Shown here piece after piece: positions 12,057 to 45,934 of a DNA stretch of 64,000 bases (positions are counted from its first letter, which is position 1; every line of letters starts with the position of its first letter). A program made the position numbers and the translations under genes. The stretch covers positions 806,001 through 870,000 of the forward strand of contig OX596344.1 of the NCBI GenBank assembly GCA_951394405.1, written 5' to 3'. The notes under the pieces are model-generated. The model did no database searches. It saw only the letters and a program-made list of their open reading frames with translations, and was not told the origin of the DNA. The stretch is from Coprinellus micaceus (taxonomy: Eukaryota > Basidiomycota > Agaricomycetes > Agaricales > Psathyrellaceae).

Positions 12057-14693
12057 CTATTCATAAACTGGCAAACCAAACAGAACAGCAGCGATTAAGT
12101 ATAGGACAGAATAGAAGCTAACTCCGGCCATGAAGAAGTGCCCAACGAATGACGGAAAGAGCATCGTCCCATCTGGGTCACGGTGCGGCTCGTTCACTGG
12201 CTCCCTCAGAAATCCGTCACAACATCCCTTCCATAACTCGACGGCCAGCCCGATAACTAGAGTCAGAACGCCCGCACCCAGATGAACTAGGCCAGTCAAC
12301 AGCAACCCCGGGATAAACAATACGAGACGCCTGCGAGGCACGGCTCGCAGCCCATCCACTGGGCCGCCGAGCGTGAATTGGTGGCCAGCGGGTTCTGCGG
12401 CAGACTTGTCGTCATTCAGCGGTCCCTCGAGCTTGGTTCCCTCCCTACGAACGCCTATTCCTGCGTCCTCCTTCGCCAGGGCTTCCTCGATTTCTTCGAT
12501 GAAGGCTTGGGGAAAGGATGTCTCCAGGTTTCGCCCAGGACCCCACGGTTCTCTCCCCGAGAGATCCATGGGTGCTTGGGCTAAAGGCACTGCGGAGGCA
12601 TCCCTTGCGCCACGGCTTCCTCCCCCCAAAGAACTTGTCGACTCCCCTCCAGCATTTTGCCGGTTACGAATAACGTTCGTAGGCGCCCCACTGTCGCGGG
12701 AGGATGCTCCTGCCTCGCCCTCGACAGGTCGGCGCTGGGCAGGGATGTCCGGGGGCGGGGCGACAAGGCGCATGAAAGGGACGGAGCCGCATATCTTGGT
12801 CGCCAAACGATAGTCGACGTCAACCAGTAGGTCCAAATAGGCAATTGCCGTGACCTGCCCGAGAATCCTGTAGCCCTCGTCCCTCGCTCCCTCCTCGATC
12901 AAGTGCCAGTCTTTCTCCCACATTTCAACATGAGAAGAAAGAAGGTTTAGAAGATATCTCGCGTCATCTTCCTGGAGCGACTCCACGAGCTCGTACTTCG
13001 GCGACGCTCTCGGCAAATCATGGAGGCCCAAGCCGGCCTGCATCACCTCGACATACTTGAACATCCTGGCCAACTTTCTAAAGACGTGAACGATAAAAGG
13101 ATGTGAGGTGAAGTCTGGGTGGGGAAGCACGCCATTAATATACCGTGCGCGGTCGTAGTCGTTCTGGAATTCGATTGAGCCATCGAGGATGTCGATAAGC
13201 ATGTCATCGAAGGCCGAATCGAACTCGGACACGCCGAAGCCCAGGCGTCCTACAACGGCCCTGTTTAGAAGGAGGGTCCGTCGTATCGCAGGAGATTCTG
13301 CTGCAGGGCCTGCGCCTTCTTCGTCGCGGGGTGGGGGAGGCGTTGACCCAGATTTCGGGCTCCCAAGGCAAGCAGCTAGAGCCGCGATTGCCGGCCGATT
13401 CCTCTTCCTGAACGGACCCTCTGGCGTATCGTACCTGCTAGCGGCGTCGAGCATCGCTTCCTTTGACCGAAATACCAACGATCCGTCTGCGTGGAGGTTC
13501 TCTAATATGACTTGGTTTACTAGGTACGTTTGGTCTGCGGAAAGGCGGTTGATGTCGAAGCTGAATTCATCCTTCACTGCATCCGATGACCTCAGGTGCT
13601 CTTGCAATGCAAAGTACGTCTTCCATTCATCCGAACGGGGATCACCGAATTGCGGTGGCGGGCGCTTATACTTGGTCGTCGCCGGCTTCAAGGGAATGTT
13701 ACTGAGGGTGCTGTCTTCCATCGCCCGGAAAATAGGATTTTTGGTGATGTTCTGCTTGAGGACGAGTGCGATTGTAGGACTCATAACGTATATGCGGAAT
13801 AGCTGGGCGATGTTTCCATTGATTGTACCTTCCCAAATGCCATAGGAGTTGTGACCCAGCACAAACTCTGACTTCTGATCGGCCATCCAGATCCCCAAGT
13901 AGTAGTTGTTGGTGGAGGTTTCGTATGCCGCGGAGAACCAGTGCTCTGGCGGGATGTCGGTGCTGAGCTCTGCATGGGGGATTAGATCGTGCCCTGGGGA
14001 ACTGGATTTTAAGGATGCGGCGTGGGCTAGAATGTCGTTGTGCTTGGTGTCGAGGTAATATTGTAAACCTTGCAACCAAATCTCCCTGTCGGACGTATAC
14101 CCCTTCTCCTCCTTCAACTTCCGGATCCATTTGCGTAGGGAAATATTGTTGGGATGATCCTCTTGGAAGTACGTCTTATCCACTGCATTACTCCGATAAT
14201 GCATAATGAAGATAAACTTGCGTAGGATCTGCAGGTCGCTCCGAGGAAGTGTGAATTGTCGACTTCCTGGCTGAACGGAAGCGACATGAAGTCGTTCGAT
14301 GATGCGTGCTGCATGATCTTCGAGCTTACTCAACTTCTCCTCGAGGTGACGCATGTTGTCTGTGTGATGGGTATCTTCATAGAAGTCGAGCAACCCAAAG
14401 ATTCGACTAACTGCGACTGCTTCAACGGATCGCTCGGCCATGTTGAATACGTCGATGGACTCGGGGTCGGGGAGGCCTTGCTTTCTCGCTTTCTTCGTAG
14501 CTTTCCACGCCTCTCGTTTCCTTTGCTTTCGATTCCTACTCGCCAGGGCACTCAGTCAGCCTGCGTTCATGGATTCGGTGATGTAGCTTCCTCACCTTTG
14601 CAGACTTGGACCTGCGGCAGGGCTCGGCTGCAGTGGAATGAACCGCCGGAGGATAAATTGTGGGATGTAATGCTGGTATTGAGGCTTCTGCAT
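12057..14693 (-). CDS. DUF4238 protein with C-terminal membrane segments (copy 1)
   Basis: Two exons (14693-14596, 14535-12057) give 858 residues. The N-terminus is the hallmark of DUF4238, QHYIPQFILRRF, split from the rest by a 60-nt intron after 98 coding bases. Next come a basic stretch (RNRKQRKREAWKATKKARK), then SIDVFNMAERS, FGLLDFYEDT, a helical region with FIMHYRS and FQEDHP, and RKWIRKLKEEKGYTSDREIW. The second half is low in complexity and ends in two hydrophobic segments (about 780-805 and 830-855). The family occurs in bacteria and fungi and has no assigned activity. Homology to the neighbour at 14994-16992 is clear over the first 500 residues, with the same intron position and the same 98-nt first exon. 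It is about 200 residues longer than that neighbour. Confidence 0.83.
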
Positions 14694-14993: not shown

Positions 14994-16992
14994 CTAGACA
15001 AAATAGGCGGACACGGTTAGTGTGAAGAAAAATGCGAAAATGACGAACGACATCGTCCCTTTGCATTCTGCTCTCCAGGATGAAGGACGCACACCGTCGT
15101 GGTATGCCGGGATCTGTCCGTGAATGCCTGTGGTGTTGGCATTTGCTTCCTGTGTATGTGGCACGGACTGGACAAAGTCCACAGCAGGGCACAGGCCTGC
15201 GACGAGATTGGCATCCACCTCCATCAGCGACTCCAAGAACATGACCACACTGACTTCTCCGGCTAGCCTCCGCAATGGATCCCTAGACTCCACGTCGTCC
15301 GTGACAGTTGAGGTGCCAATGGCTTCAAGGAACTTGGTCGAACAGTCCAGAAGCCGGCCGCTGTCCGCCGAGGAAAGCGTATCGACGGTTCTGATATTGA
15401 CATCCGAAGCGAACCTGCCTCTCAAGGTCCCATGTCGGTCAGCTACGATGCTAGCGAAGCTGATGGGACCCAGAACACTCTGGCGAACGTGTTCTGCGAA
15501 AGGATGAGTAGATCGGTCAGGGAGTGGAATTCTGTGGTAGATATGTTGGGCACGATCGTAATCGCTTCGGAATGTCTTCTCGCCCGAGAGTAGTTGGACG
15601 AGGACTGCATTGAAAGCACGGTCTTCCTTTGACTGCTCCGATTCATCGTTGGAACGCAGGAGGGGGTGGGTGACGGCTCCCTTATTCCGCGATGTGCCGT
15701 CGCCGTCGTTGTTCGGCCTGTTTGACTGGCCTGACAAACAGGAGGCCAACGCTTTGATTGCCCGGCGATTGGCCTTGGAGAGGGTATTAGGGCCTGGCTG
15801 CGTGTCGAAGAGTCGGGCGGTTTCAGCCATAGCCTCCTCGGAAGAAAACACTAGCAAGCCATCCTGACCGAGGTTGGAGAGGACGACTTGATTCACGAGG
15901 TATGTTTGGTGGTCAGATAGGCTGTGGATGGTGTACGTGAACTTGTCATCCTGGGAGAGGATGGATGGATGATCGTCCATTCGAATAGTCGTTGACTGCG
16001 TCTTGGCGTATAGAGGACTGGGGGCGTTCAGTGGGTGGCCTGATAGCGTGCTGTGCTCGAAGGGTGAAAGAGCACTTTGTCCCTTGGCCAGCGACATTTT
16101 GAGCACAAGCGTGATCTGAGGGCTGACGACGTAGATGTGAAATAATCCTGTTTCGCCCATAAACCGCCCCTCCCAAAGGCCGTACGAGTTATCCCCAAGG
16201 ACAAACTCAGAGCCTTCACTGGCTCGCCAGATGCCCATGAAATAATGGTTGGAGTACTTCGCATAGGCGACCGAGTGCCACTGGTCAGCGGGGGTATTGA
16301 TGTCCAGGTTTCCGCCAACCCGATCTGCCTGCTGCTTAGAGGTGGCTACGATGTCGGAATGGGGGGTGTCCAGGTAGTACCGGAGCCCGTCCAACCATAT
16401 CTGGGAGTCAGAGGTGTATCCCCGCTGCTCCTTCAAATGGCGGATCCAGTCACGTATGTCGGTGTTCCCGGGATGGTCCTCCTGGAAGTAGGTCTTGACA
16501 TGTTCGCTCCGTCGATAGTGCATCAAGAACAGGAACTTTCTCATAAGTTCGAGTTCTGTACGTGAAATAGTGAAGGTGTCGGTTCCCTCGGCGACCCTCA
16601 CGTACAACTTGTTGAGGACCACACTGGCCTCCCTCTCGAGCGAGGCGAGCTTCGTTTCGAGATGACCTGTGTCACCTGTTCTGGCCGTGTCTTCATAGAG
16701 ATTTGCGAATCCAAACGCCTTGGCGAGGGGAACCGTTTGAATGGATTGGGTCGCCATGTTGAATACCGTGATGTCTTCCGCGACTACGGGGAGGCCGCGG
16801 CGTAATGCTCTGGCTCTCTCACGTTCTCTCTCTTTCCTACTCCTGGTGCAATGGTTCATCCTCTGACAAAAACGTGGTAACTTGAGAGACGTACTTGGTT
16901 GATCCCCTGGTTCCATTGTAGCCATCCGAATCTGGAGCTTGGAATTGCCGCAAGATGAATCGAGGGATATAATGGTGATATTGGGATGACAT
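14994..16992 (-). CDS. DUF4238 protein (copy 2, tandem paralogue)
   Basis: Two exons (16992-16895, 16842-14994) give 648 residues. It starts MSSQYHHYIPRFILRQF, the DUF4238 signature, and continues through a basic stretch (SRKERERERARALRRG), DITVFNMATQS, FGFANLYEDTARTGDTGHLE, FLFLMHYRRSEHVKTYFQED and RHLKEQRGYTSDSQIWL, each matching copy 1 block for block. The first exon is 98 nt, as in copy 1. The C-terminus carries one hydrophobic segment (last 20 residues), so the protein is probably tail-anchored. The 300-base gap to copy 1 and the same orientation indicate tandem duplication followed by divergence of the second half. Function is unknown. Confidence 0.82.
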
Positions 16993-17323
16993 AGTGAGCG
17001 CCTTGATATTACACCTCTGTTCGAGCTCTGAGTCCAGTCGGAAAGCCGAAGTGAACGCGAGCAGTGGTGGTCAAGAACAAGGGGCAAGCGGCGATGGGAG
17101 CGTGGATATTCCGATACTCATCAAATTCCCATGGCTTGGTAGATAATACAAGTACAAATATTTCGTTGCCTCCCTTCGGAAAGGACATGGCGAAGCTGGC
17201 AAGAGTCTGGGTGGGTATAGTGGGTAGGAGGGCAACACAGCTCGAGAGACAGAATTTCAAACACCGTAAACGAGGAACGGTTATCGTGATGATAGGGGTC
17301 AATCAGAAGCAAAGGTTCAACGT
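16993..17323. other. Gap between DUF4238 and dynamin-like genes
   Basis: These 331 bases should hold the promoter of DUF4238 copy 2 and the 3' end of the first dynamin-like gene, both on the minus strand. No other feature was seen. Confidence 0.45.
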
Positions 17324-39322: not shown

Positions 39323-39331
39323 ACAGCACCG
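39323..39331 (+). repeat. Left target-site duplication, ACAGCACCG
   Basis: The 9-mer directly left of the terminal repeat is repeated exactly at 45926-45934, directly right of the other end. Confidence 0.85.
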
Positions 39332-39358
39332 TAGGTTCGGAGCAAGCCCCTTGCTTCG
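39332..39358 (+). repeat. Left terminal inverted repeat
   Basis: TAGGTTCG at the tip, then CAAGCCCCTTGCTTCG. An inverse copy of the CAAGCCCCTT block lies just inside (39376-39394), so the end can fold on itself. Confidence 0.8.
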
Positions 39359-39850
39359 GTCCGGCGTGCCGGATTCCTTCGAAGAAGGGGCTTGGGACAA
39401 GCTCAGCCAAATGATGGGGATCTTTTGTCGAGCACTTCTACCACTCAAACTCACTCTATGACTACGAAAATTTATATGAGTGTTCAACAGATGGCATCGA
39501 TTAGGAATATAAAAAATTTAAAACAGAAGGACCGTTGTATGTAATGATATCAGGCCCAGGACTAGGACCTCGCAATCCTGGGCATTGGGTTCTCTGGGTA
39601 CCCAATGTACCACTTGTACATATCCTATGACCTTTATAAACATTATAGAAACACACAGCCTTCATAAAAACAATGAATTGGGTCAGGGAACAGCCAGAGG
39701 AACGATCGGGAGCACCGACGATGCCCCTATGCTCAATTGCACAGCCACTTGAGCCCCTCACGCGCCAAAGACATGTCTCGGTCAAGCGGGCTGCTATATG
39801 GGATGGCTCGATAGAGTGGAGAGAGGGTCTCAGAAATAAACAGTCCTCCC

Positions 39851-42752
39851 ATGGCCACACTTGCATACGACACCGCACATTGGGAAAGGTTCCCTGGCAT
39901 TGTGCCAGAGGACATTACCCCGGAGGCTCGGATCCATCTTGTGGTCTCCCTCATCCTCTATCTCGGCATTTCTCTTGTCGATATCCTCGAATTTATCTTC
40001 ACGTCTCGCATCCGCCAGGTCAGAGAACGTGCCGGGCGATTCGTAGGTGTATACAGGGCTGGCGCGACACCAAAAACTCGGTTCCCAGCCGGCTACATCT
40101 ACAAGCTATGGCACGACCAATTCCACAAGAGTCGGCCCTATCTTCATGCTGCTATCGAGCCATGCATGCACGAGATTGCTCTTCGGGAGAGCGACAACAT
40201 CATATCAGACAAGCGACTGAAGATTCGGATCAATGAACTCACCAACGATTCCTTCGAGAAGCTTTTACAACCTGGGGCGGTCATGGATATATACAAGGAG
40301 TGTGCCCCATACACGGTGCGCTTCTTGGATGTATTTGCTTCGTCTCCAAATCCCCATAGAAAGCGTGAGGCAAATCGAAAGGCAAAGGAGAGGAAGAAGG
40401 CGAGAAAGAAGGCGAAGGCACAAGAGTCGGCCGCCGCATCTGAGGAAGAGGGCTACGACGAGGACTGGAATGATGACCCGAACCTTGAAGATGACGATCC
40501 TGCCGCGTTCAAGTGTGAGGGTGATCCGAGCCTTGAGGGCTTCTCTCGGAACCCTGCGTTTGTACGTAGACTATTTCTAGGGAGCCTAACAGTTAACTTA
40601 CACATCAACAGGCTGTAATGCTCGCCATATCAATGCTCACCTTCGTTCGAAACCGCGCAACCAATTTACTCCCCTTGCTGTGTGGACTATTCTTCAAGAT
40701 CGAGGGCACAAGTTCACGTGTCATGAAGATGCTCAGTAATACAGGCCTCTCAATCTCGGCACGCACCATCGAGCGTTTGAAGGAGAAGGTTACGGAGGAG
40801 GCAATTCGCTCAGCAGGAGACCTGGTGAAGAGTGGGCGGATGTTTGCTGTCGTTTTTGACAACATCAACCTCTACCTGCGAAAATACGACCAAAGACTTA
40901 CCAACCAGCATTCCATGATCCATGCAACCAACACTGCTATCATCGCTATCAATTCCATGAACTTCGACGCTCAAGCAGCAATCAACGTTGATGAGAATGT
41001 CGGAAAGCGGGGGAGTCGAGCGAAAGCGGCGTTGCGAGATGTCCTTCCGGATGCCAGTGACGATCAACACATCAGAAAGTCGTCCAAGGTCATGGTTGCC
41101 GACATGATCACCCGCTATGCGCCCGAAAGCAAGAACTGGCCAAACCGGAACAAGATGCTTGATGAGAACATGCGAGGGATGCCTGAAGATCGGCCGCTTG
41201 ACGCAGAGAAGTCAGACACAAGACCACTCGGGGTTTTTGACGTTAACGAGGGATCGAAGGATGGTGTTGTCAAGCTACTCGAGCTCATTCCTGGTCGTCT
41301 GGGGCTGTCGGAGAGTGACTGGTCGGCGTCGACACGCATTCTCCTGGGCGACTGGCTTTCGGTCAACAACTTCCGGTTGGCGAGAGCTGACAGGTCGGAC
41401 GAGGAGGACAACGAGGATAGTCTAATCTATGGAGAAATAGTCAGTCAGACTTTCCATTTTGCCCTCAACGCATCGCAACTCTTGATACGCACCCATCATG
41501 GTCTCGCCACCGACCCCACCTCACTCGCCGCACACAAGACTCTACTACGACGTGTTTGGGACGTCAACAAGGCCAACTATGCAGCGGCGAAGTCACTTAT
41601 TCGACATTCGTTCATAGCACGAGTCCTGCATCTGACAATGTGAGCCTTAATCTACTACCAGACTATTCTTGCTCACCGATGCACCCAGGAAGAAGCTTGG
41701 TTTTAAGCGTTGGGCGGATCTCGCAAGCTGGATCCCAGAGAACCTTGACAAGGTTCAGGAAATTGCAGCTTGGATTGTTGACGAGTATGCGACGACCAAC
41801 GCGGCAAAGAAGGCAAAGTTGAAGGGTGACGACTGGGCCGCCCATGATGCGTACTTCCTCCGTGACGCGCTGATCTTCATGGAGTTCGAGCAGGCCGTAT
41901 CGTTTGCAGACGCAGGACGGGTGCTTCGAGTGATGAAGTACTGGTGTCTAGCATTCCGAGGCGCAGGTCAGCACAACTACGGACGCGAATGTGCAGAGAT
42001 CATCCTTCAATGGAAGTATGAACTCACAGAGGATCTACAGCGGGCGCTGGAGCGCTCATGGTTTGTGAACACGCATGGAATCCGAGGAATGTGGATTGCG
42101 GCAGACTTGTATCTCGAGCATATGAACCTGTCAGTCAAGGTGAGTGATCCACATTTCCCCAGTGACAGGCAGCTTAAGCACCTACATTTAGCGGGTTTAC
42201 CTGGCCCAGGGTAACGGGGTGACCATTCGGTACATCATGCAGAAAGGTTCAGCGTGCGTTGAAGTGTTTCGATCCGTCTCAAGGCTCGTTGCGCGTTTCT
42301 TCGGTGATCCAGACCGTGCACGTAAGTCAAAGGAGGTGGCATTTCAGGAAGATATGCGGGCGCTTGTGGAGTACCTCGAAGGCCAAGGCGTCCATGGTGG
42401 GTACAAGGAACATTTTGTCCCAGCCCCAAAGAAGAAGAAGAAGGAGAAAACAGTGAGGTCGGCGGTGATTGACACCATTGCAGTCGGCGCTGGCGTCTGG
42501 CAGAGTACAGGGAAGTGGAACGAATTCCTTCGAACCACAACTTACGATGCAGCATTGGGGTATCCTGTGGAAGAGCCAACATCCGATCAGCACGATTCAA
42601 CCCTAGACAATGGAACCGTGTTCGACGATCCAGAGGGCAACTTACTTGGATATGGAGGCAAGGATCTTGAGGGTGATGGTATCTCGAGTGGTTTGGGTGG
42701 GAGTAGCATCGGTGGAGGTGGTGAATTTGATACTGGAGAGGATGAGGTTTAA
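39851..42752 (+). CDS. DUF6589 protein, candidate transposase
   Basis: Four exons (39851-40561, 40612-41639, 41689-42139, 42210-42752) give 910 residues. The N-terminal 230 residues end in a Lys/Arg-rich stretch (about 170-200) and an acidic patch. From about 245 on the protein matches the fungal DUF6589 pattern: FVRNRATNLLPLLCGLF, GLSISARTIERLKEK, then FAVVFDNINLYLRKYDQ with D320 in a VxDNIN motif, TNTAIIAI, LGDWLSVNNFRLAR, LFLTD-equivalent and GRECAEIILQWKYEL. The C-terminus has a KKKKKEK run and a Gly-rich end. An Asp after hydrophobic residues followed by N is what an RNase H-like nuclease core could show, but I cannot place the other acids. It is the first gene of the element; its stop overlaps that of the helicase. 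Confidence 0.82.
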
Positions 42753-45577
42753 CGAGGGTGCTGGTCGGGTGCCTGGTATTTGGATGGCACGAATCGCAGT
42801 GGGGCTAGTGGGCGAGGTGACGGGTGTGGAGAGTGGGCATGGGTGCTCGGCACCCTTGAAAGTGGTGACTGTATGTAGTTATGTGGCGATGGTAAAATAA
42901 ACTGAGGAGTTGCTGACGAGTATAGTGGCGTTGAATATGGTGGATGAGGAACGAAGGGCGAGTGGGGTGGTGGGAACATTGGCATCGATGGCTGGGGGAA
43001 ATGAGGTAACGGCGACGGCAGTGCAAACCCGGGTATGGAGTGCTGCGGAAAACGAGGTAAAGGTTGAGGCATTGGATGAGAGTAGTGCGGCGATTGAGGT
43101 GAATGGGGAAAGTGAGGTGAAGGCGGTGGCATTGTGAGTGGGCTTGACGGTGACGAAACATTTGGAGGATGTGAAAGCATGGGGTAGGAAGGCGCAGACA
43201 CGGGCAGAGTATACATGCCTTGCTGCATGGCTGGTGGCGGTCGGTAGGCAGGTGCAAAGGACGGTTGTGGGATAGGCGGTTTGGTTGACGGGGCTACAGT
43301 GTTCTTTGGTTTTTTCTCAGAACGCCGTTGCGATTTCGGAGTTCGAGCAGGTTGAGACCGGATGACATCCTGGCACCATGTCGTGATGATCTCGGCGAGG
43401 CGTTCAACTTCAGTCTGGGTGGCGATGTTGACGTCAACGCGCTTGTGGACGTCAGCAGTACTGACTTCGGTTTGCTCGAGGTACACCTCATGGTCGGTAA
43501 GCAGCTTCTCGAGGTTGGCCTCGGGAAGGAAGATCTCACTTGGAAGATAAGGTGAGCTTCCAGCGTCTTCCCAACACTGAACCGCCCATGCTGCCATCCG
43601 CCCACGGAGAACATCGAGCTGGTCGTCAGTCGCTGAGTACTGGGACTTCCGAGGGCGCTTTCCTTTCTTGGTCGAGGCTGTGGATGTATTCGAAGCTGTT
43701 GAAGCCTGGGAGGCAGCTGACAAGCTGCGAGGCGGTGGTGGTGGTGGCTGCGTGATCGGGAATTTGAAGTCGGCAGCGAAAGCGTAAAGGCGAGGGTCAG
43801 ATAGGTCGGCGGCCTTGTACTCGTCAGTGAGAGAGGGGTTGCAGGACCAGCAGCAACGTGACGTTGGAGGAGGCGCACGGATGTCCAGCACTATCCAAGA
43901 CATCTCGAACTCGGAATTCGAAGCACGTTTTCCAACTTGGACAGGCGTAGTAGCATTGAGGCTGTCATAGACAGAGAGGTTTGTGTCAGGCCGGAAGGTT
44001 TTGCTGAGACTGCGATGGGAGCAGCCTAGGGTAAACCGTAAGCTCAGGTACAATAGAAACTTGGAAAAAATTCACCTCGGGGGAGTGTTGAATCAGAATG
44101 GACATTGAGGAATGCCTCGAGACCCCTCTCCAGCTGGGCGCGCTTGACGGTGTGTGTTTTGGCCTCAGCGATTAGCTTCCCCTTATACCGCCGAAGTTTG
44201 GGGTTGATGGTCAAGGGTCGGAAGGCCCACTTTGGAACGACGAGAAGGCAGATGGCCTGGGTGGTCCGGTCTCGCCCAGCACGACCCCAACGCTGAGCTA
44301 ATGAGCTGAGCGAACGAGGCATCCCAAAGCATGCAACCACCTGCACGTCTGGAACATTACACCCCATGCCTGCTGCATCCGTCGCACAGAGGATTCGGAT
44401 AGTTCCTCCAACGAACCTCGACCAGCGGCGACGCTTTCCCTTGACGGAAAGGTCAGAAGAGAATGCTTGAACGCACTTTCGGAGATGCGCCGGGAGACAT
44501 TTGCGAATGAAATGGACCGCTTGCCGACACTTGGCTTCAGAGTCGAAGTACAGAATCATCTTCTTGATATCTTCGAGCTTCGTATTGGAGTCGACGCAGG
44601 GCGGCAAGAAGTCGAGAACCTCGAGAATGGGCATCTGTGTATGCTTCTGCTCTCGAACGACGTGCAAGAGGTTTGGGCGGGTTCCACCCACATCCAATCC
44701 CCAAAAGGGGCGCTCACCATACCCCAACGTCGACCAAAGGAGGTCAAAGGTCTCCGTTCGACAAGTCGCCGTGCATGCCAGGTACGGAACCTCCAGCCCT
44801 GTGTAGCTGCGAAGGTGGTGGAGCTGTCGGTAGGCCGGACGGAAGGTGTCATTGCCCCAGTCGTCGATGCAGTGAGCTTCATCGACAACGAGCACCGTCA
44901 AGCGTTTACGAAAGGCGTTGTCCTTCCAGAGTTTTGCGAATGAGTCAGAGAGAGCCATTTCCGGGGACAAGTAGATGAGCGAGGCTGTCTTTCGAGCAGC
45001 GTCCCATAAGCCAGTTGTGCGAGTCGTGTCCTCGTTGAGAACGACAGTGCTGAGACCCTTCTCGGACGCCTGCCTAGCCTTATCGAAACATCAGATTCTC
45101 GCGACTAGAGGAGTCAAGTGCAGAACACACCTGGTCATACTCGAGCGCCTTTATTGGGCATACTATCATCACCGTCTTCCCAAGACGCATTCGGAGGGCG
45201 GCAAGGGCTTCGAAGATGATACTTTTGCCATACCCAGTGCCAGCAGAAACGATGGAATCGTAACCCCTGAGGACACGCTGTATCACATTCAGCTGCCACT
45301 CATCCGGAGTGAATGACAGCTGCAGGAGCTCCTTGACGAGCGCACCGAGCTCGGGGATTGACATCGATGCAGTTTCGTCACGCCTGAGGCCCTGGGTTCG
45401 CTTTGCTGCATTCGTTTTGCGCTTTCTGGGGGTGGTGGGCAGGAAAGGTAATGCTGTTGAGGGTTTTGTGGGTGAGGTAGGGGCCGGAGGCGCATTTTCC
45501 TTGTCATGGCGGGCGGTTTCTACGCGTTTTGACGTGTTAGTGCGTGGATATATGTTACTAGAGTTCATACCACACAC
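42749..45577 (-). CDS. RecQ-like DEAH helicase with long Pro-rich C-terminus
   Basis: Three exons (45577-45131, 45078-44076, 44025-42749) give 908 residues. Superfamily 2 helicase motifs are in order: Q-motif region SFTPDEWQLNVIQ, Walker A SAGTGYGKS (111-119), DEAH in VDEAHCIDDWG (215-218), ACTATCR (motif III), ILCATDAAGMGCNVPDV (motif V) and SLAQRWGRAGRD (motif VI). This is the RecQ type, unwinding DNA with ATP. No RQC zinc site or HRDC domain follows. Instead there is a region of about 420 residues with CCWSCNP, a Lys-rich patch, a helical part (about 610-720) and a very Pro/Ser/His-rich tail. It lies inside the transposon, facing the DUF6589 gene, so it probably serves transposition or replication of the element. 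Confidence 0.87.
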
Positions 45578-45898
45578 CCAGTATGCTCATTTCGCCCTCA
45601 ATGTGGCTTGCTTCTTCAGGAGGAGGTAGGCCCAAGTACGGCTGAAGGCGGGAATACTGCGCGATTTTCGAACCATTATGCATCCTTTAGTGGCGGAAAG
45701 ACAGCGGTATATAGTAGCCTGACATACGATAATAAGTTTCTGAAAGTTTCAAGAGACTCGGTTAAGGCGTTGGAGAGGAAGATGGTTTAGAGATCCTCAA
45801 GTATTCGTTGAGTTTGGAGCAAGCCCCTTCTTCGAAGGCGAGCGGAGCTCGAACGCCGTTACCATATAAGGCGTTGTTTGGTGTCCTTGTGATCCAAA

Positions 45899-45925
45899 CA
45901 CGAAGAGGGGCTTGGCACGAACCTA
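45899..45925 (-). repeat. Right terminal inverted repeat
   Basis: Read on the minus strand it begins TAGGTTCG, then TGC, then CAAGCCCCTCTTCG. It pairs with the left end over 20 positions with three mismatches, then with a gap. A further inverse block stands at 45820-45838. Confidence 0.8.
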
Positions 45926-45934
45926 ACAGCACCG
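45926..45934 (+). repeat. Right target-site duplication, ACAGCACCG
   Basis: Exact copy of 39323-39331, immediately outside the right terminal repeat. Confidence 0.85.

Follow-up and report, generated by a model that had tools for sequence, protein, structure and literature searches.

Helicase-carrying DNA transposons of the AcademH kind were reportedly described in Kojima 2020 (Mob DNA 11:15), and they provide the reference point for the element analyzed here, which lies at positions 39332-45925 of a 64,000-nucleotide stretch of Coprinellus micaceus contig OX596344.1 (hereafter, the window). As described in an excerpt of PMC10045372, AcademH elements encode a helicase and generate duplications of 9 or 10 bp, whereas AcademX elements encode a nuclease and generate duplications of 3 or 4 bp, the lengths being tied to the encoded helicase or nuclease; the same paper cites Kojima 2020 under a title that assigns AcademH to animals and fungi. 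Two further papers report AcademH in low copy numbers from Basidiomycota, Ascomycota, and Mucoromycota (PMC10799480) and Academ elements averaging 5,565 bp in a curated bivalve set (PMC10294476). A RecQ helicase is also carried by KolobokH, a fungal lineage of Kolobok, whose superfamily shows 4-bp TTAA duplications and 5'-RR...YY-3' termini (PMC9587614, in extract). Finally, the A mating-type locus of Agaricus bisporus harbors an unclassified non-autonomous element with 9-bp duplications and inverted ends of 93-96 bp, for which the other strain has an empty site (PMC10051438, in extract).

The comparisons below make it likely that the window element is an intact, probably autonomous DDE (Asp-Asp-Glu) DNA transposon of the AcademH kind. 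Its DUF6589 protein very probably serves as the DDE transposase, and the transposon carries a RecQ-like helicase of its own, an assignment well supported by the recurrence of the gene pair, the ends and duplications, the near-identical copies, the empty-site paralogues, and the predicted DDE core. A preliminary description of this DNA had proposed the same roles, and this part stood; its further suggestion that the combination is absent from every described family did not, since the excerpt cited above describes AcademH as encoding a helicase and making duplications of 9 or 10 bp. The main use of the result is that a domain of unknown function, DUF6589, gains a function, and proteins bearing it can be relabelled from host genes to probable transposases.

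Structure of the Window Element

The complete transposon is 6,594 bp long and holds two intact genes between inverted ends of the type TAGGTTCG. The coordinates in the preliminary description proved exact, and reading of the window recovered the inverted ends, the perfect 19-bp subterminal repeat, the perfect 9-bp duplication, and the two genes that it had listed. The features are as follows:

39323-39331, no strand: target-site duplication, left copy ACAGCACCG, identical (9/9) to the right copy
39332-39351, plus strand: left terminal inverted repeat TAGGTTCGGAGCAAGCCCCT, 17/20 alike to the right end
39343-39394, plus strand: stretch able to form a hairpin, its start 11 nt in from the left end (DNA fold z -4.0, 0/200 shuffles as good)
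39376-39394: left arm of the 19-bp inverted repeat, a perfect match to the right arm and part of the left hairpin stretch
39851-42752, plus strand: DUF6589 transposase gene, putative, 4 exons, 916 aa (Pfam, exon model, triad D320/D484/E680)
42749-45568, minus strand: RecQ-type helicase gene, 3 exons, 905 aa (Pfam, exon model, match to solved RecQ chains)
45820-45914, plus strand: stretch able to form a hairpin, its last base 11 nt in from the right end (DNA fold z -5.3, 0/200 shuffles as good)
45820-45838: right arm of the 19-bp inverted repeat, a perfect match to the left arm and part of the right hairpin stretch
45906-45925, minus strand: right terminal inverted repeat TAGGTTCGTGCCAAGCCCCT, 17/20 alike to the left end
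45926-45934, no strand: target-site duplication, right copy ACAGCACCG, identical to 39323-39331
Expected empty-site form: ACAGCACCG followed directly by CGTGCTCATG

The two genes are convergent (tail to tail), with stop codons overlapping at 42749-42752, and both are open once introns of 49-52 bases are removed in a predicted exon model whose splice sites were chosen from GT...AG and reading frame. The DUF6589 exons lie at 39851-40561, 40612-41639, 41689-42139, and 42192-42752 (plus strand), and those of the helicase at 45568-45131, 45078-44076, and 44025-42749 (minus strand). By its matches to solved chains of bacterial RecQ (E 4.5e-28) and human WRN (E 1.6e-27), the helicase is a member of the RecQ family at the sequence level, and a Pfam scan of the seven exon open reading frames (ORFs) in the window found no nuclease. 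Three protein searches with DUF6589 returned 157, 406, and 181 matching proteins; the best 120 of each all carry DUF6589, and those with an organism name are basidiomycete. Among the matches listed, the closest relative of the window transposase is from Ephemerocybe angulata (61% identical), and no animal relatives occur in the best 120 of the 181 matches obtained with the most divergent DUF6589 lineages as query.

The coincidence of duplication and inverted ends was set against chance by pairing two 5.5-kb flanks, one to the left of the start codon of DUF6589 and the other to the right of the ORF of the helicase. One of the 169 exact 9-bp direct pairs found there has inverted ends of at least 15/18, and none of 300 dinucleotide shuffles of these flanks contained a 9-bp pair plus inverted ends at that level.

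Recurrence of the Gene Pair and Its Ends

The genome assembly (50.3 Mb, 17 contigs; C-numbers denote contigs and the number after the colon the position) contains 25 DUF6589 exon matches, grouped into 15 loci. A search for DUF6589 and RecQ-like pairs in this genome had been suggested beforehand, and a RecQ-like helicase was found within 4 kb at 13 of the 15 loci (the window and 12 of the 14 others), the searches made finding none at C12:2108937 and C6:2536032. Twelve of the 13 pairs, including that of the window, are convergent and one is head to head (C11:417644). At four loci (two on C4, C8:1560959, and C9:2868443) the matches to the window helicase are weak, and these C4, C8, and C9 helicases are backed either by helicase motifs or by a DEAD domain that passes the Pfam cut-off.

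Full reading covered the window and nine other loci, 20 kb each; C9:1365223, C7:293316, C6:2536032, C11:2783359, and C11:1220186 lie outside it. Seven of these ten loci exhibit TAG...CTA ends with a perfect duplication, of 9 bp in five and 10 bp in two, and most of the pairs read have inverted ends and duplications; among the loci read, the lack of them that the preliminary description had named as counting against it was not the outcome. The seven elements span 5,688-6,957 bp, and besides ACAGCACCG at the window their duplications are:

C4:3525530: TGTGACACG, 9 bp
C4:4210040: CCCAGTCACC, 10 bp
C11:417644: AAGGGAAAG, 9 bp (genes head to head, same kind of ends)
C8:1560959: GACGTGTCC, 9 bp
C9:2868443: GGAAGGAGG, 9 bp
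C1:2907541: ACCCTTCAAG, 10 bp

These ends come from a scan for TAG...CTA ends with duplications of 8, 9, or 10 bp, shorter duplications being outside its range; it recovered most of the outer ends, which an exact-duplication scan and self-alignment had missed or misplaced. The TAG rule was set after sight of the ends of the window, D2, and D6 (D labels denote elements among the loci read), and the ends of D3 and D5 had been partly seen before, so that full independence from the rule holds only for D4 and D8. As a control, the left side of one locus was paired with the right side of another in 90 combinations; six gave any hit, a perfect duplication was absent from all of them, and the top control score was 26 versus 30-35 for the real elements. 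The three other loci read differ from one another: C8:2318994 holds an element with DUF6589 and a helicase whose ends are of the TTGTCTCG type and whose duplication, GCTCACAC, is 8 bp long, unlike the TAG...CTA group; C12:2108937 showed no ends in the scans; and the right flank of C1:2993454 was not covered.

Evidence of Mobility

Two elements on C4 (C4:3525530 and C4:4210040) are 99.88% identical over their full 5,881 bp, with seven differences, and they occupy different sites and carry duplications of different lengths, 9 and 10 bp. The presence of such near-identical copies in two places indicates recent movement, and what a RecQ helicase does in a DDE transposon is therefore a question open to direct test.

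Empty sites were sought with the joined flanks of the seven elements, one duplication copy each, and 40 of 121 candidates were scored. Matches ungapped across the junction were found for C4:4210040 in at least one place (180 bases at 99%), for C4:3525530 in at least six (144-147 bases at 99-100%), and for C8:1560959 in at least 33 (90-93%). These are paralogous sites in repeats, not alleles. For these three sister elements the paralogous sites run uninterrupted across the duplication, and breaks at other positions, which the preliminary description had named as counting against it, were not seen among them; the window element and the other three elements had no empty site among the candidates scored. 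The C8:1560959 element itself sits in a repeat found at no fewer than 33 other places, between 250-bp inverted repeats 92.8% alike.

The window ends also recur on two short copies, and they are hence not the unrelated local repeats that the preliminary description had allowed for. The first (C13:82018-82162, 145 bp) has the same ends and the duplication ATGGTCGAT/ACGGTCGAT (8/9), and the second (C6:2301388-2301746, 359 bp) has both window-element ends around an unrelated interior, with no clear duplication. Short copies were accepted only from alignment because the 17-base end pattern, with up to two mismatches, showed no excess, occurring at 18 places versus 27 for the reversed control. A degenerate copy of the right end of the window element, 84% alike over 71 bases, lies at C11:50172-50243.

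A Predicted DDE Core in DUF6589

The D-D-E residues, D320/D484/E680 in the window protein, are conserved across divergent lineages. AlphaFold models of two DUF6589 lineages, P0001 and P0127 (predicted local distance difference test, pLDDT, 84.0 and 85.3), place D292/D456/E652 and D117/D275/E488, respectively, at the positions of the DDE triad, with the first D on strand 1, the second after strand 4, and the E on a late helix. When the two models were compared with known structures, DDE enzymes occupied the first 28 and the first 23 rows, and the predicted RNase H-like core is nearest to Hermes, P element, Tn5, ISCth4, and RAG1. A large all-helical insertion ahead of the E also appears, in the models, to be common to DUF6589, Hermes (hAT), P element, and RAG1. 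The RNase H-like core anticipated around D320 thus has a counterpart in these models, D320 being the first conserved D.

Foldseek alone gave nothing significant, its top three rows nonetheless being Hermes, ISCth4, and Hermes. Nothing significant came from a viral library, a sequence profile built from 81 DUF6589 proteins matched no solved chain, and P0001 had no relative in the plasmid collection.

Hairpin Ends and the Role of the Helicase

Each end of the window element has a palindrome beginning 11 nt inside. In six elements (D3, which duplicates D2, was omitted), hairpins at z <= -3 form at 7 of 12 ends, and internal means are near 0, with one internal control stretch of the window reaching z -3.8. 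The exceptions include D4, with none, and D2 and D8, with hairpins at the right end only. The hairpin-forming ends suggest that the helicase may work on the ends.

In the mechanism that we propose, the DUF6589 protein, with its predicted RNase H-like core and D-D-E triad, would act as the transposase, most likely excising the element at the TAG...CTA ends and joining it to a target whose strands are cut at a distance of 9-10 bp, a spacing that would give rise to the 9-10-bp duplication. The RecQ-like helicase would most likely assist, either by opening the hairpin-forming ends or by remodelling the product of strand transfer, which would allow repair of the short gaps.

Alternatively, the transposase would move the element and the helicase would be a passenger, retained not for transposition but for some other purpose, such as defence or persistence. 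The two DUF6589 loci at which no helicase was found and the reversed gene order at C11:417644 are in keeping with this unlikely alternative. Against it, RecQ-like helicases are retained next to transposases as little as 13% identical, and low nonsynonymous divergence (dN) accompanies saturated synonymous divergence (dS) in one pair of elements, from C4 and C8: dN is 0.24 and dS about 2 (near saturation) for the transposase, and dN is 0.42 and 0.26 with dS saturated for two stretches of the helicase. Judged from this one pair, both genes look to be maintained by purifying selection.

Elsewhere in the assembly, a family of RecQ-like genes occurs in 1,027-aa open frames at C9:23162, C9:3020443, C10:11766, C10:2812748, and C1:5279108, the two on C9 (3,031,526 bp) lying 11-23 kb from the contig ends. 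Subtelomeric RecQ genes are mentioned for Agaricus bisporus var. burnettii in an extract of PMC7473861. In the window, two adjoining long frames with DUF4238 lie on the minus strand at 12060-14441 and 14997-17087.

Comparison with Known Systems

We infer by analogy, from the shared helicase and 9/10-bp duplications compared by description only, that DUF6589 is the Academ transposase. DUF6589 is named nowhere in the literature searched, and this equation may therefore be unstated there; Repbase and Kojima 2020 may well contain elements of this kind already. The same absence lends some weight to the idea that DUF6589 elements form a DDE superfamily of their own, distinct from Academ, that gained its RecQ-like helicase, hairpin ends, and 9-10-bp duplications independently; the helicase would then act on the hairpins at excision or after strand transfer, a step that other eukaryotic cut-and-paste elements are not known to take. 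At least one further superfamily has acquired RecQ, in the KolobokH lineage as described, so independent uptake does happen. The AcademH description as excerpted, however, specifies just this, a helicase and duplications whose length is 9 or 10 bp, and AcademH is reported from Basidiomycota, leaving a separate superfamily distinctly improbable.

KolobokH resembles the present elements in being a fungal DDE transposon with a RecQ helicase. We rejected this very remote assignment on its duplications and ends, the described TTAA sites and RR...YY termini contrasting with the 9-10-bp duplications without TTAA and the 5'-TA, TAG...CTA ends of the DUF6589 elements. That two host genes merely neighbour each other between unrelated local repeats is next to impossible and was rejected given the recurrence, the ends and duplications, the near-identical copies at two sites, and the empty-site paralogues, with nothing found in its favour.

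The hAT and P elements make 8-bp duplications and are not known to carry a RecQ gene. The transposases of hAT (Hermes) and P element share about 8-10% identity with DUF6589, and hAT membership was rejected, the duplications being 9-10 bp in all seven elements.

Returning to AcademH as the likely affiliation, the DUF6589 elements share with its excerpted description a DNA transposon with a helicase, duplications of 9 or 10 bp, low copy number, and occurrence in Basidiomycota, together with a DDD/E triad and predicted fold. No difference was found in this comparison by description, which covered the helicase, the duplication lengths, the copy number, the occurrence, and the type of transposase. 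AcademX would belong to the same superfamily if DUF6589 is Academ and differs, as excerpted, in its nuclease and 3-4-bp duplications, the window element having no nuclease by Pfam and a 9-bp duplication. The Agaricus bisporus element has no transposase in the extracted account; likened by description and not by end sequences, it could be a derivative of the DUF6589 group. The mean length of Academ in the bivalve set, as extracted, is similar to the lengths of the elements found here.
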